Origin: Natrialba magadii ATCC 43099
GTDB lineage: Archaea; Halobacteriota; Halobacteria; Halobacteriales; Natrialbaceae
Length of the DNA: 64,000 nucleotides
Assembly: GCF_000025625.1 (NCBI RefSeq)
Contig: NC_013922.1
Location: 2,542,001-2,606,000 of the forward strand
Reading direction: 5' to 3'
How positions within the stretch are numbered: the stretch's first letter is position 1; each line of letters opens with the position of its first letter. Positions 56,940-64,000 of this stretch are shown piece after piece. A program made the translations under genes and the position numbers. The notes beneath the pieces are model-generated. The model ran no database searches and was not told where the DNA came from. It saw only the letters and a program-made list of their open reading frames with translations.

Positions 56940-57626
56940 TCAGTCCCGGCCGAGCGTGTGGAACTCGTCGTTCGGCCGCATCTCAGCAAACATCGCCATT
57001 CGGTTACTCAGGTTGTAAAACGATGTTACGGCGGCGATGTCCCAGAGTGCCTCCTCGCTGAAGCCAGCGTCGCGGAGTCGGTCGAGATCCGACTCTTCGA
57101 CCGCCATTGGTCGCTCGGTGAGTGTGACAGCAACGTCGAGCATCGTACGATGGGTCTCGTTGATATCCGCAGTTCTGTAGTTCGCGATCAGTTGGTCCGC
57201 TAACTGTGGATCTTGAGCATAGATCCTCACGAGTGCCCCGTGTGCGACATTACAGTAGTAACAGTGGTTGACACCGGAGACCGCGACAACGATCATCTCG
57301 ATTTCCTCACGCTCGAGTGCGGTGTCCTCGACGAGTGCGTCGTGGTACTGGAAGAACGCCCGGAAGTGTGAGGGTTTGTAGGCGAACGCGGAGAAAACAT
57401 TCGGTGTGAAGCCAGCGCTCTCGGTTTCCTCGGTGATCCGTTCCTGGAGGTCCTCGGGGAGTTCTCCGAAGTCCGGGACGGGGAAGTTCGCCATGGCGTC
57501 GTCTGCGAGGGTTGGTGTGGCGTTCGATTCTCCAGTTGCATCGTTGACTGAACCCGAGTCCGTGTCCGTGTCCGTGTCCGAGTCTGAGTCCGTGTCCGTA
57601 TCGACTGTGTCGTCCTGATCGCTCAT
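56940..57626 (-). CDS. AhpD-like peroxidase-related enzyme (carboxymuconolactone decarboxylase family)
   Basis: 228 residues. A Asp/Thr/Ser microsatellite head covers residues 8-26. The AhpD-type motif is 'NHCYYCNVAHG' (Cys122, Cys125, His129), preceded by 'LEREEIEMIVVAVSGV'. The family includes alkylhydroperoxidase-like enzymes that reduce peroxides using the redox cysteine pair. Ends 'DEFHTLGRD'. The 199-nt gap upstream on the minus strand shows no gene. Confidence 0.9.
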   Translation of the reverse strand: MSDQDDTVDTDTDSDSDTDTDTDSGSVNDATGESNATPTLADDAMANFPVPDFGELPEDLQERITEETESAGFTPNVFSAFAYKPSHFRAFFQYHDALVEDTALEREEIEMIVVAVSGVNHCYYCNVAHGALVRIYAQDPQLADQLIANYRTADINETHRTMLDVAVTLTERPMAVEESDLDRLRDAGFSEEALWDIAAVTSFYNLSNRMAMFAEMRPNDEFHTLGRD

Positions 57627-57825: not shown

Positions 57826-59610
57826 CTATTCTGACCGGAGGTCCTCACGATCTTTGTCCCGGTCGCCAACCGGGTCGCGTTCGTGGACGTGTCGCCGGTT
57901 GCTCATATCGTCGTCCGTCCGACCAGTGTTCTCGTTCGCACGCCGCTCCTCGTTCGCACGCCGGTCGTCGCCGTACGTATCGCCCGACCGCTGCGTGTCC
58001 GATCGCTCTTCTGTCCAACTACCCTGCTCAGAGCGGCGACCGGTCTGACGGTACTGGAGTCCGCCACCGCTCCGGTCACCGCGACCACGGTCGTCCCGCC
58101 GCTCCGTCTCCCGTGTTGTGCGTCGGTCGTCGTGGCCTCGGTCCTGCATCTCCGTTGATCGACGGTCAGATTCCCGAGACCGAGCGTCTCGCTGCCTGCT
58201 CCGGTAGTCCGATCCACTATCCTGGCTGTGGGGGCCGGGTTGTGCAGCCGTCGGTCGGGACGACGATCGAGACGAGGACGAAGACGACCGCTGGGAGCGT
58301 TGCTCCGTCGGCGGCTCACGCGTCTCCGTCCGCCGCTCACCGCCCGAACCGGTATCCCGACGGCGATCCGGCCGCCCCTCCGGCATCCGCCGGGGCTGGG
58401 GCCGAGACTGGCCACGTTCCTGTCGGGACCGGCGCTCGGACTCTCGCTGCTGCCGTCCGTCGTCGTACCCGCCGCCGCGACGATCCATCGATTCATCCCG
58501 CTGTGGCGGCTGCTGGCCCGAAAAGCCCTGACTGCGCTGGTGGCGACCCGCCGTCGACTGCCCCTGTCGCGGCCCCTGCTCTCGCCGCCGGTCGTCCTGT
58601 GTTCGTTGTGCTCCACTCCTGCCCCTGTCTCCCGACCGGCCGGATGCCGCCATCTCCGGCGGACGGTCGGACCGCCGGTCAGTCGACTCGTCCTGCCGAT
58701 TCGCCCCGCGTCGCTCGCGACGTTCCTGTTGGCCCTCAGGTCGCGGCATCTCTCCGGTGTGATCCGGTCGCCGCGCCTGCCCGCCGTACTCGAGTGCAGC
58801 CGCGTTCTGCACGTCGGCGTCGGTCTCGAATCCCTGTTGTTGCTGCTGTCGTCGGTCGTCCTGGGCGCGATGCCCGCCAGTATCTCGGGGACGCCGTTCA
58901 GTCCGACCTGACTGTGACGACCGAGAGTGGGATTCGGAATCGATGGCCGAGCGGCCGGGTTCGTGCTGGTGGCGGTGGGTGTTGCGGTCCTGCGGTTGCC
59001 GTCGGCCCTGTCCTCGCGATTCACTGCGTCTGTGTCCGTCGTGGCCGCGATCCTGGCGTGACTGGCCACTCCGTTCTTGTCTCGGTTGCTGCCCACGTTC
59101 CTGTGACCGCTGTGACCGCTGTCGCCGCTGTGACCGCCCCTCCCGGCCGCGCCGGCGCTGTTGCTCGTCGACATCGACCGCTTCGTGTCCGCGCTCGTCG
59201 TACCGAGAACCGCCGCGGTCGTGGCGAGCCTGCCCACCGTACTCGAGTGAGTCGGCCTCGCCCAGGTCGGTCTCGAATCCCTGTCGTTGTCGTTGCCGCT
59301 GTCGCTGTCGCTGCTGGTGGCGCTGTTGCTGGTCGGTTCGAGCTCGCCGTCGGTCGTCTCGACCTCGCTGTCGGCCGCCCTCGCGACTACGCCCGTGTTG
59401 CTGCCCGCTATCGCGCTCGCCTCGCCGAGTGCCGTCGCGCGCTCGTCGGCCCTCCGGTTCGCGCCGCCCTTCGTCCTGTGGCCACTGCTCGCGCTCGCCG
59501 CGCGGTTGTGACCGTCGGTCGTCGCGGTAGCCCTGTTCGCGCTCGCCCGGGTTCGATGCCTCTCGCTCGTCCGATCGTCGGCGGTCGTTTCGGTTGTGTC
59601 GGTCGTTCAT
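57826..59610 (-). CDS. Arginine/glutamine-rich intrinsically disordered protein with a duplicated motif
   Basis: 594 residues. By hand count about 145 are Arg, only one is Lys (586), and there is no Cys. Gln, Asp, Glu, Ser and Gly make up most of the rest, and no hydrophobic core, signal or membrane segment is visible. Two conserved islands interrupt the low-complexity sequence: 'GFETDLGEADSLEYGGQAR' (111-129) and 'GFETDADVQNAA' plus 'LEYGGQAR' (260-280), each preceded by an Arg/Gln or Gln run. The plus strand and other frames are also open here, so coding status rests on the motif repeat and a consistent ATG and TAG. Function unknown; no match known to me. Confidence 0.6.
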   Translation of the reverse strand: MNDRHNRNDRRRSDEREASNPGEREQGYRDDRRSQPRGEREQWPQDEGRREPEGRRARDGTRRGERDSGQQHGRSREGGRQRGRDDRRRARTDQQQRHQQRQRQRQRQRQGFETDLGEADSLEYGGQARHDRGGSRYDERGHEAVDVDEQQRRRGREGRSQRRQRSQRSQERGQQPRQERSGQSRQDRGHDGHRRSESRGQGRRQPQDRNTHRHQHEPGRSAIDSESHSRSSQSGRTERRPRDTGGHRAQDDRRQQQQQGFETDADVQNAAALEYGGQARRPDHTGEMPRPEGQQERRERRGANRQDESTDRRSDRPPEMAASGRSGDRGRSGAQRTQDDRRREQGPRQGQSTAGRHQRSQGFSGQQPPQRDESMDRRGGGYDDGRQQRESERRSRQERGQSRPQPRRMPEGRPDRRRDTGSGGERRTETREPPTEQRSQRSSSSSSRSSSRPTAAQPGPHSQDSGSDYRSRQRDARSRESDRRSTEMQDRGHDDRRTTRETERRDDRGRGDRSGGGLQYRQTGRRSEQGSWTEERSDTQRSGDTYGDDRRANEERRANENTGRTDDDMSNRRHVHERDPVGDRDKDREDLRSE

Positions 59611-59876
59611 AGGTGATTGGTGTCCGGATCTGTCTGAACCGAGTGCTCGGTGCGTGCGCCGCGGTAGTGTTCGGTCGCGGCGCGACGAACTGTTCGCCGA
59701 CTACAGTACGTGCGTCCGACGGGGATGCTACACAGATCGTGCGGATAAATCCTGAGCGTGCGTAAGCGTGCACCGGAGCTGATATCCGCCATCGACCGCT
59801 GAAACCGCCGTTGACGCGACCACCGCTAGTTCGACGCATCCGCTACCGTTTTCCCACATGTCCGCGATGTGCCCGT

Positions 59877-60947: not shown

Positions 60948-62009
60948 ATGTTCGAGAAGTCGACGTGGATTCGGCTCCCCCGAAACGTCGTCGTCGGTCA
61001 CGGCGTCCGGTCGTCGGTCGTCGAGGTCGTCGACGACTTACACCTGCAGGGACGGCCGCTGCTTGTGACGAGTCCAACGCCGCGACAGGTTGCCGCGGAA
61101 CCGGTCGCCGCAGATTTCGAGGCGGCTGGCATCGACCCCGCGATCGTGACGATCGAATCCGCGACGTTCGATTCGGTCGAAACCGTCATCGAAACCGCAG
61201 AAGCGGAGGAGGTCTCTTACCTTATCGGCGTCGGCGGCGGCAAGGCCATCGACATTGCCAAGATGGCGAGCGACCACCTCGAGATGGGCTTTCTCTCGGT
61301 GCCGACGGCGGCGAGCCACGACGGCGTTATCAGCAACCGCGGCTCCGTCCCGGACGGAAACACCCGCCACAGCGTGGCAGCTGAGCCGCCGCTCGCGGTT
61401 GTCGCCGACACCGAAATCCTGGCCGAGGCACCCTGGGAGCTAACGACGGCGGGCTGTGCGGACATCATCTCGAACTACACCGCGGTGATGGACTGGCGGC
61501 TCGCAAAGCGGCTCAAGAACGCCGAATATTCCGAGTACGCCGCGGCACTCTCGGAGATGACCGCCGAAATTCTCGTGGACAACGCCGACCTCATTCGGCC
61601 GGGACTCGAGGAGTCCGCCTGGGTCGTCACGAAGGCGCTCATGTCCTCCGGCGTCGCGATGAGTATCGCCGACTCCTCGCGACCGGCAAGCGGTGCGGAG
61701 CACCTTTTCTCCCACCAACTCGACCGAATCGCGCCTACTGCGGCACTGCACGGCCACCAGGTCGGCGTCGGATCGATCATGACGGCCTACCTGCACGGCG
61801 GCGAGCGCGGCATCTGGCGGGATATCCGCGACGCGCTCGCGAGCATCGACGCGCCGACGACCGCAGCGGAACTCGACATCGACGACGAGACGGTGATCGA
61901 GGCGTTAACGACCTGCCACGAGATTCGCGACCGCTATACGATTTTGGGTGATGGGATGGACGAGCACGCGGCTCGCGAGGTTGCGACGAAGACTGGCGTT
62001 ATTTCTTGA
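60948..62009 (+). CDS. egsA: sn-glycerol-1-phosphate dehydrogenase
   Basis: 353 residues. 'GVGGGKAIDIAKMASDH' binds NAD(P), 'TAASHDGVISNRGSV' and 'HLFSHQLDRIAPTAALHGHQ' supply the zinc ligands (Asp and His) and the active site. It makes glycerol-1-phosphate, the archaeal lipid backbone, from dihydroxyacetone phosphate. Full length with no damage. The first 36 codons and about 30 nt of upstream sequence have a decayed copy at 62837-62975. Confidence 0.97.
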   Translation: MFEKSTWIRLPRNVVVGHGVRSSVVEVVDDLHLQGRPLLVTSPTPRQVAAEPVAADFEAAGIDPAIVTIESATFDSVETVIETAEAEEVSYLIGVGGGKAIDIAKMASDHLEMGFLSVPTAASHDGVISNRGSVPDGNTRHSVAAEPPLAVVADTEILAEAPWELTTAGCADIISNYTAVMDWRLAKRLKNAEYSEYAAALSEMTAEILVDNADLIRPGLEESAWVVTKALMSSGVAMSIADSSRPASGAEHLFSHQLDRIAPTAALHGHQVGVGSIMTAYLHGGERGIWRDIRDALASIDAPTTAAELDIDDETVIEALTTCHEIRDRYTILGDGMDEHAAREVATKTGVIS

Positions 62010-62836: not shown

Positions 62837-62975
62837 CACGTATGGTCGCCGCTGAGTCGGCCGGGACGTGTTCGAAAAGCCGACGGGGACCCGTCGCCCG
62901 CGAAACGTCGCCACCGCCCACGCCGTGATGGATAACGCCGTTGATGTCATCGATGACCGCTACCCACAGAGGTTT
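62837..62975 (+). pseudogene. Decayed duplicate of the egsA 5' end
   Basis: From GTG at 62868 the translation 'MFEKPTGTRRPRNVATAHAV' aligns with the egsA start 'MFEKSTWIRLPRNVVVGHGV', continuing 'VDVIDDRYPQR' against 'VEVVDDLHLQGR'. ACACGTAT upstream of both, followed by similar sequence with CTGAGTC/GACTCAGTCC, extends the match about 30 nt upstream. The rest of egsA is missing, so only about 36 codons remain. Confidence 0.75.
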
Positions 62976-62982
62976 GTCCCCG

Positions 62983-64000
62983 CTACCGCTGAAACCGCTG
63001 CGTCCCGAGCAGCGACATCGCGAGCGCGACGACACCACCGATCGCCAAATGCGCCCAGTAGGTCGTCAGCCGGTAGAGGATCGCTCCCGCCGTCGCCACA
63101 TCCGCCGGAACGCCTGCCGTGGCGACGAGCAAACTCGCCAGCACAACCTCGATGCCGCCGCTCCCGCCGGGCAACGGCACGACGCCGCCGAACGACGCCA
63201 GCGGCGCACAGACGAACACCAGCGCCAGCGGCACGTCAACGCCCAGCGCGACCAGCCCGAAATACAGCGGCACCGCGTTGAACACCCAGCTCACGACCGC
63301 GATTCCGAACGCCGCGACGAGCGTCCGCGGCGACGCCTGAATCGCTTCTAGCGTCCCGAAGAAGCCGTCGATCCGACTCGTCAGCGCTCCCTCTAACTGC
63401 GTCAGCCGCGAGAACGGCAGTTTCCCCACCAGGGTTTCCGCGTGGCCGGCCAACTCGAGTGCCACGTGTCTCGCGACCCCGCGGTGGAAGACGATGACGA
63501 CGACGCTCGCTGTGAGGAGTCCGCCGCCACCGAGGACGGCGAGGCTGGCACCGATGGAGTCGAGCGAGCCGTCGCCCGTGAGGACGAAGATGGCTGCGCC
63601 GAGGCCGGCGATGACGAGGCTGCCGATGACGTTGAATCCCTCCGCGGCGGCGACGGCGGCCAGGTTGTCCTCGAACTCGGAGTCGGAGTTGTTCGCGAGC
63701 AGGTAGGCGGTGACGGGGGTACCGGTCGAGCGACCCCAGGGAAGCGCGCTGCGGGCGAAGTAGCCCGAGAGATAGGCGGTCGCGAACGCGGTGCCGCGGG
63801 CTGCGCCTTCGACGGGTGCGAGGAGTCGTTTGACGAGCAGGCCCCGGAGCGCGAGCATGCCGAGACCGGTGAGAAGGGCAGCGGTGAGCGCCGCGGGATG
63901 GGCTTCGCGGACGTTGTCGAGGACGGCATCCCAGCCGACGCCGTAGATGAAGAGCCCAATGACTACGACGGCAACTGTGAGCCCGCCGACCGCCCGCCGC
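62983..64000 (-). CDS. Lysylphosphatidylglycerol-synthase-type flippase-like membrane protein, N-terminus beyond the window
   Basis: 339 residues are visible and the frame is open at base 64000, so the start is outside. Six or more hydrophobic helices and the features 'YLSGYFARSALPWGRSTGTP', 'EGFNVIGSLVIAGLGAAIF' and 'PLPGGSGGIEVVLASLLV' match the LPG-synthase TM (YbhN/UPF0104-like) family, which moves or transfers lipids. The visible N-terminal part includes 'VAVVVIGLFIYGVGWDAVL'. Its 3' end lies 8 nt from the egsA relic. Confidence 0.88.
   Translation of the reverse strand, partial: RRAVGGLTVAVVVIGLFIYGVGWDAVLDNVREAHPAALTAALLTGLGMLALRGLLVKRLLAPVEGAARGTAFATAYLSGYFARSALPWGRSTGTPVTAYLLANNSDSEFEDNLAAVAAAEGFNVIGSLVIAGLGAAIFVLTGDGSLDSIGASLAVLGGGGLLTASVVVIVFHRGVARHVALELAGHAETLVGKLPFSRLTQLEGALTSRIDGFFGTLEAIQASPRTLVAAFGIAVVSWVFNAVPLYFGLVALGVDVPLALVFVCAPLASFGGVVPLPGGSGGIEVVLASLLVATAGVPADVATAGAILYRLTTYWAHLAIGGVVALAMSLLGTQRFQR

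Follow-up and report, generated by a model that had tools for sequence, protein, structure and literature searches.

An arginine-rich, predicted disordered protein family of Natrialbaceae as a candidate scaffold at molar salt

Introduction

Arg-rich disorder in many known proteins binds RNA. In RNase E (degradosome; BR-bodies), the C-terminal scaffold is disordered and Arg-rich and carries short motifs for partners; the protein described here is likewise Arg-rich, predicted disordered and equipped with short motifs, which may serve partners too.

At 2.7 M KCl, the Arg-rich peptide PR25 undergoes phase separation by itself, and poly-U RNA then makes no difference (PMC7889641). Experiments on Arg-rich peptides show self-association taking the place of RNA-dependent condensation in molar KCl or NaCl (PMC7889641, PMC9705477). 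Arg-rich peptides, but not Lys-rich ones, undergo re-entrant condensation at high salt, and Arg-driven re-entrant condensation of protamine in high salt has been measured (PMC9705477). In work on R-MCD proteins, alternating R/D peptides did not self-condense, whereas blocky ones did (PMC9324279).

Acidic proteins are what one expects in haloarchaea, and most work on condensates has been done near 0.15 M salt. Among the papers we searched, none dealt specifically with archaeal condensates or with disordered Arg-rich haloarchaeal proteins. Here we describe such a protein, P0001, encoded in a 64,000-nucleotide stretch of the Natrialba magadii ATCC 43099 genome (hereafter the window; the genome comprises 4 contigs and 4,443,643 bases in all), together with its relatives.

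Results

The gene of interest and its downstream neighbor lie on the same strand:

57826..59610, minus strand: coding sequence of P0001, Arg-rich, Lys-poor, Cys-free and predicted disordered (translation, syntenic frame, dN/dS, AlphaFold)
56940..57626, minus strand, same as the P0001 gene: downstream AhpD-like peroxidase-related gene (TIGR01926, Pfam CMD)

Translation of the first gives 594 residues from ATG through stop, exactly the coordinates, strand and length given in an earlier note on this DNA. The nearest full-length homologue, from Natrialba sp. SSL1, is syntenic, 84% identical and has the same start and stop. Between the two, dN is 0.088 and dS 0.459 (dN/dS about 0.19), and differences at codon positions 1, 2 and 3 number 49, 45 and 160; more distant pairs were saturated and left out. 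The frame contains no stop, against 16.6 expected from its own base composition, and the family as a whole has no in-frame stop against 461 expected from base composition. A frame that is kept in syntenic relatives, free of stops, and changed mostly at third codon positions with a dN/dS of 0.19 identifies this, on comparative grounds, as a genuine protein-coding gene. Neighboring genes give dN/dS values of 0.04-0.08 in the same kind of comparison; by this measure the P0001 gene is under constraint, yet faster-evolving than its neighbors.

The earlier note had observed that the region is open in other frames as well and had called for a decision about coding; the comparison settles it for the present frame. 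Four of the five alternative frames give dN/dS of about 1.8-2.2; the remaining one, antisense, gives 0.26 but carries 5-15 stops per full-length homologue. We take the antisense frame that is open throughout to be a by-product of composition. Codon statistics and stops thus rule out coding in another frame. The check that the note had set in advance, whether relatives keep the minus-strand frame, found it kept, and the gene stands.

The composition of P0001 is extreme. It contains 145 Arg, 1 Lys, 0 Cys, 70 Gln, 69 Gly and 116 Asp plus Glu (24% Arg and 20% Asp plus Glu), with a net charge of +30 and a pI of 11.2, and is very hydrophilic, with about 6% hydrophobic residues. By comparison, the median pI is 4.4 for the remaining gene-like ORFs in the window, and the Nab. 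magadii proteome lies mostly at pI 3-5 (PMC3403918). The counts of Arg, Lys and Cys, and the standing of P0001 as an exception to an acidic proteome, are as the earlier note had them. If the 146 basic residues followed the R:K ratio of the window (3.25), 34 of them would be Lys (P = 4e-16), and base composition alone predicts about 13 Lys and 10 Cys. The same avoidance runs through the 45 members of the family, with 4655 Arg against 39 Lys (R:K 119 versus a background of 3.25); from base composition, 523 Lys and 326 Cys would be expected, and 39 and 1 are seen. Hydrophobic residues, too, stay scarce across the family.

The net charge changes sign between members, from -41 to +45, and NCPR is 0.01-0.05 in the eight members measured. 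Charges are well mixed: delta for P0001 is 0.0489, lower than in 100 of 100 shuffles, and acid/Arg mixing in the linkers has a median z of -2.5, with 29 of 44 members lower than all 60 shuffles. RG (16 versus 17 in shuffles) and RGG (2 versus 2) are not enriched in P0001, RS dipeptides are (26 versus 15), and RG exceeds shuffle level in homologues L090, L095 and L101, as does RG[GQR] in several members.

To locate constrained regions, we aligned the 45 family sequences (alignment A4) and took blocks by information content. In P0001 these comprise residues 1-27, 34-52, 109-135, 258-281, 340-364, 509-541 and 564-594. G125, G126, R129, G515-L518, R526, E528, G530, W532, D568 and R572-H576 are near-invariant across the 45 sequences. 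The principal elements are as follows:

59530..59610, minus strand: N-terminal block, residues 1-27 (MNDR..R..RR...; A4 information content)
59290..59349, minus strand: residues 88-107, Arg/Gln-rich, the sole predicted helix, directly before motif copy 1 (AlphaFold, low to moderate confidence)
59224..59280, minus strand: motif copy 1, residues 111-129, GFETDLGEADSLEYGGQAR, of the type FETNAxxExxLEYGGEARH (translation, pattern search, A4)
58771..58833, minus strand: motif copy 2, residues 260-280, GFETDADVQNAAALEYGGQAR (translation, pattern search, A4)
58519..58593, minus strand: block of residues 340-364, ...GQSTAGRHQRSQGFS, found in most members (A4)
57988..58086, minus strand: block of residues 509-541, SGGGLQYRQTGRRSEQGSWT, with near-invariant G515-L518, R526, E528, G530 and W532 (45 sequences)
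57829..57921, minus strand: C-terminal block, residues 564-594, DDMSNRRHVHERDPVG.RD.DR, with near-invariant D568 and R572-H576

Across the family, the motifs are the N terminus, FET[DN]..LEYGG[EQ]AR, GRHQRSQG, SGGGLxY..R.E.G.WT and a C-terminal SNRRHVHERDP. The earlier note had pointed to a duplicated GFETD...LEYGGQAR motif at residues 111-129 and 260-280; this motif is conserved across genera, and members carry between 0 and 3 LEYGG-type copies. Each copy in P0001 follows an Arg/Gln run, and the second aligns with the type FEPDVxDExxLEYGGEARR from other genera. The SGGGLEY block resembles a diverged LEYGG copy by eye, and was rejected as one since profile comparison gives no support. Close to the N terminus, many other genera have GWLHGL[FY]SRG, a sequence missing from Natrialba.

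AlphaFold, run with the 45-sequence alignment, gives a mean pLDDT of 43, with 541 of 594 residues below 50 and one modest helix (88-107) as the only secondary structure. On this prediction P0001 is almost certainly disordered throughout, in agreement with the earlier note, which had also taken the two motif copies for the only ordered-looking parts of the protein. The prediction does not bear out this last point, as nearly all residues of both copies have pLDDT below 50. Nor are the copies the only constrained parts: at least four further blocks are conserved. Because AlphaFold builds no fold at the copies, they are best seen as short linear motifs rather than small folds.

Between the blocks, the linkers vary in length, repeat content and flavor, and diverge too far for alignment. 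They are Arg/Asp-rich in Natrialba and in genera g16 and g12, and Gln/Gly/Arg-rich in g10, g15 and g4. In the linkers, selection appears to keep composition and patterning rather than sequence. Homologues L083 and L101 contain about 6-7 tandem in-frame copies of QQGQRHQ and QQGQPQQRG units, which suggests linker growth through repeat expansion.

Several searches were combined to define the family. A whole-gene HMM matched 6 of 7 Natrialba genomes and one sister genus; a profile covering 77 C-terminal positions had matches in 43 of the 392 genomes of the order, two of them false; and the motif DNA pattern occurred in 21 of these genomes, in 7 genera, its reversed control in none of the 392. A locus-based search added members that the sequence models had missed. 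The resulting sample has 45 members in 17 genera, all in Natrialbaceae. Among the 392 genomes no convincing member was found outside this family: two marginal matches were rejected, one (G373) antisense to a trpB-like gene, the other (G221) with two stops within a 45-residue frame. In these searches the family thus seems restricted to Natrialbaceae, an absence elsewhere that rests on profiles of short blocks.

P0001 matched no family in Pfam, NCBIfam, PHROG or PADLOC, and no solved relative of it or of its C-terminal block was found in the PDB; the plain match to a characterized family that the earlier note had named as a refuting outcome did not turn up in these collections. The 45 members give one marginal Collagen match (E 0.006), probably driven by composition. 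Viral contigs, PHROGs and PADLOC each yielded 0 relatives, and a viral or defense origin was rejected on this basis; Rfam has no known RNA element at the locus.

The gene order around the family is near-invariant: egsA, epimerase, (KaiC-like ATPase), P0001-family gene, (DUF123), AhpD-like, gltB. The Natrialba locus lacks the KaiC-like and DUF123 genes, and g16 lacks an adjacent KaiC-like gene. In most genera the DUF123-domain and KaiC-like ATPase genes flank the family gene (L081:3467-6553 and others), and KaiC-like, P0001-family, DUF123 and AhpD-like genes follow one another in that order on one strand. The KaiC-like ATPase at these loci bears an N-terminal Cys-rich stretch. An acidic low-complexity tail of Asp, Ser and Thr, which varies between species, opens the AhpD-like protein (57500-57626, minus strand; TVDTDTDSDSDTDTDTDSGS...), and the charge complementarity between this tail and the neighboring Arg-rich protein might be meaningful. 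Elsewhere in the window, ORF 62868-63281 begins MFEKPTGTRRPRNVATAHAVMDNAVDVIDD, like the start of the egsA-type protein at 60948 (MFEKSTWIRLPRNVVVGHGVRSSVVEVVDD), and then diverges; from its sequence it looks like a partial, decayed duplication of the 5' end of the egsA-type gene.

Some relatives have lost the family gene. In Natrialba genome G004 it is cleanly deleted, the sequence jumping from window position 59675 to 57740, and in G060 the KaiC-like gene and DUF123 stand without it between them; the AhpD-like gene persists in both. N. chahannaoensis keeps a 155-residue acidic remainder, in which an internal deletion has left the two ends alone, including the C-terminal block. Such losses in several relatives (G004, G060 and others) indicate that the gene is dispensable. 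Genome G088 carries a 163-residue acidic version (L107:5512-6132; pI 4.1) that keeps SGGGLE..R.E.G.WT and lacks LEYGG and RRHVHE. In the G053 homologue (L019:1800-2013) an N lies amid a repeated stretch of ~130 bases and the frame is broken, probably through an assembly fault.

The DNA that separates the upstream gene from the start codon holds a further conserved feature:

59725..59772, minus strand: 48-nt conserved upstream element, TGCACGC..AC.CACGCTC.GG.TTTATCCGC.CG.TC.G..TAGCA (consensus scoring, model R1)

The element, which can also be written TGCACGCGAACGCACGCTC.GG.TTTTATCCGC.CGTTCGG..TAGC, ends about 115 nt before the P0001 start codon. Against a fixed consensus it scores at least 19 of 29 at 42 of 45 loci, the shuffled maximum being 18. 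Model R1 finds it at the P0001 locus with E 5.6e-13 and as a single copy in that genome; each of the 8 genomes scanned lacks a second significant site, and a regulon sharing the element was rejected for them. A TATA-like TTTATC precedes the start codon by about 140 nt here and by roughly 70-170 nt at other loci. The element is probably a dedicated promoter, comprising the TATA-like TTTATC and an operator-like block. It is absent in G060. In G004 it is retained, though decayed, and now precedes the AhpD-like gene, which suggests that this gene and the P0001 gene are co-transcribed, as is probably the case in N. magadii.

Discussion

We infer that the most natural reading of P0001 is a scaffold with docking motifs. 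Specifically, it may be a multivalent disordered scaffold that self-condenses through Arg at molar KCl and docks partners through short motifs, a reading to which we assign a probability of roughly 0.4. At the molar KCl of the cytoplasm, Arg stacking and further non-ionic contacts, which salt would leave unscreened and Lys would make poorly, would hold the Arg/Gln/Gly/Asp linkers to one another, and the associated linkers would build a condensate or enter an existing one. One or more partner proteins would dock on the LEYGGEAR repeats and on the conserved ends. The AhpD-like, DUF123 and KaiC-like products, encoded co-directionally and often adjacently, would be the first candidates; since no neighbor gene is present at every locus, none is singled out. 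In a cell with molar KCl, the preference for Arg rather than Lys is telling, and the behavior of Arg-rich peptides at high salt (PMC9705477, PMC7889641) shifts the expectation from RNA binding to self-association.

Other observations count against this reading. The linkers are well mixed, like the alternating R/D peptides that did not self-condense; the G088 (163 residues) and N. chahannaoensis (155 residues) versions are acidic; the losses in several relatives make the gene dispensable; and no neighbor is constant enough to point to a partner. To our knowledge, re-entrant condensation at high salt has so far been observed only in test tubes. More doubtful than the scaffold reading in general is its most specific form, in which P0001 would scaffold a condensate native to the cytoplasm and suited to molar salt, self-associating in the re-entrant regime, with the LEYGGEAR copies setting client valency: an archaeal counterpart of the Arg-rich speckle scaffolds that would have evolved independently within a single haloarchaeal family.

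It is rather unlikely, in our judgment, that P0001 is an RNA- or DNA-binding protein (RGG/SR-like or protamine-like) whose linkers bind nucleic acid and whose motifs recruit processing or nucleoid factors. The 145 Arg and the pI near 11 would suit this role, as would the excess of RG and RG[GQR] over shuffles in several members and of RS in P0001; however, net charge per residue is small and its sign varies among members, Asp and Glu are interspersed with Arg more uniformly than chance would give, and RG is not enriched in P0001 itself. Molar KCl would also weaken Arg-phosphate contacts by screening, and high-salt Arg condensates did not respond to RNA (PMC7889641). RNA binding, which the earlier note had raised, is thus not favored as the primary role, given a small, non-conserved, sign-changing net charge, mixed charges and the high-salt peptide experiments.

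Less probable again is a protectant role of the LEA or hydrophilin type, in which a disordered and highly soluble chain would act as filler and guard other proteins from low salt, desiccation or oxidation. A very hydrophilic, Cys-free chain with so few hydrophobic residues would serve well here; the gene is dispensable and variable in length, and its linkage, seemingly under one promoter, to a peroxidase-related AhpD-like gene fits a role in oxidative or osmotic stress. Bulk protectants, however, have no need of near-invariant motifs such as GGGL..R.E.G.W, RRHVHE and LEYGGEAR, and the Pfam LEA/hydrophilin models match neither P0001 nor the family as a group.

We consider it improbable that P0001 is a dedicated adaptor or assembly chaperone for one neighboring enzyme (AhpD-like, DUF123 or KaiC-like), with the linkers as mere spacers. 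The conserved strand and order of these genes in most genera would favor this, as would the promoter element still standing upstream of the AhpD-like gene after the G004 deletion. Yet every neighbor is non-adjacent somewhere (KaiC-like and DUF123 in Natrialba, KaiC-like in g16), and the AhpD-like gene survives in G004 and G060 without the family gene. Finally, the idea that there is no gene here, only a frame held open by GC-rich low-complexity DNA with the true gene in a different frame, draws on two further frames nearly open over >560 codons and on a GC3 of 0.70 below a GC1 of 0.79, contrary to the neighbors, but has almost no chance of being right given the dN/dS of 0.19 against the nearest full-length homologue, the stops in the other low-ratio frame, and motifs, start, stop and upstream element kept across 17 genera.

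With its retained Arg, its near exclusion of Lys and Cys and its short motifs at one fixed locus, the P0001 family lends itself to asking whether Arg-based, salt-insensitive condensation is something that cells use. It supplies a natural series for this question: members with two, three or no motifs, Arg/Asp versus Gln/Gly linkers, the N. chahannaoensis deletion and the G004 loss.

No homology of P0001 to R-MCD speckle proteins or to RGG/Q-rich proteins was detected, and the comparison with known systems is therefore one of character. With R-MCD proteins it shares a large excess of Arg over Lys, Asp/Glu paired with and placed among the Arg, well-mixed charges, low sequence conservation and predicted disorder. 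It differs in being archaeal and stand-alone and in having conserved short motifs of its own; many members of its family are, in addition, Gln/Gly-rich. The g10, g15 and g4 members share Gln/Gly/Arg-richness and RG repeats with FUS-like RGG/Q-rich proteins, and a role through weak multivalent contacts, as in those proteins, is plausible by analogy; unlike them, the family has few aromatics, no RNA-recognition domain and a near-zero net charge. The RNase E scaffold differs from P0001 in sequence and organism and in its attached catalytic domain, which P0001 lacks. Protamine, like P0001, uses Arg in place of Lys, but has a much shorter chain and, per residue, a far higher positive charge; the near balance of acidic residues and Arg in P0001 argues against protamine-like DNA packing. 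The P0001 family is a new, unnamed one and a candidate archaeal version of a known type of disordered scaffold.
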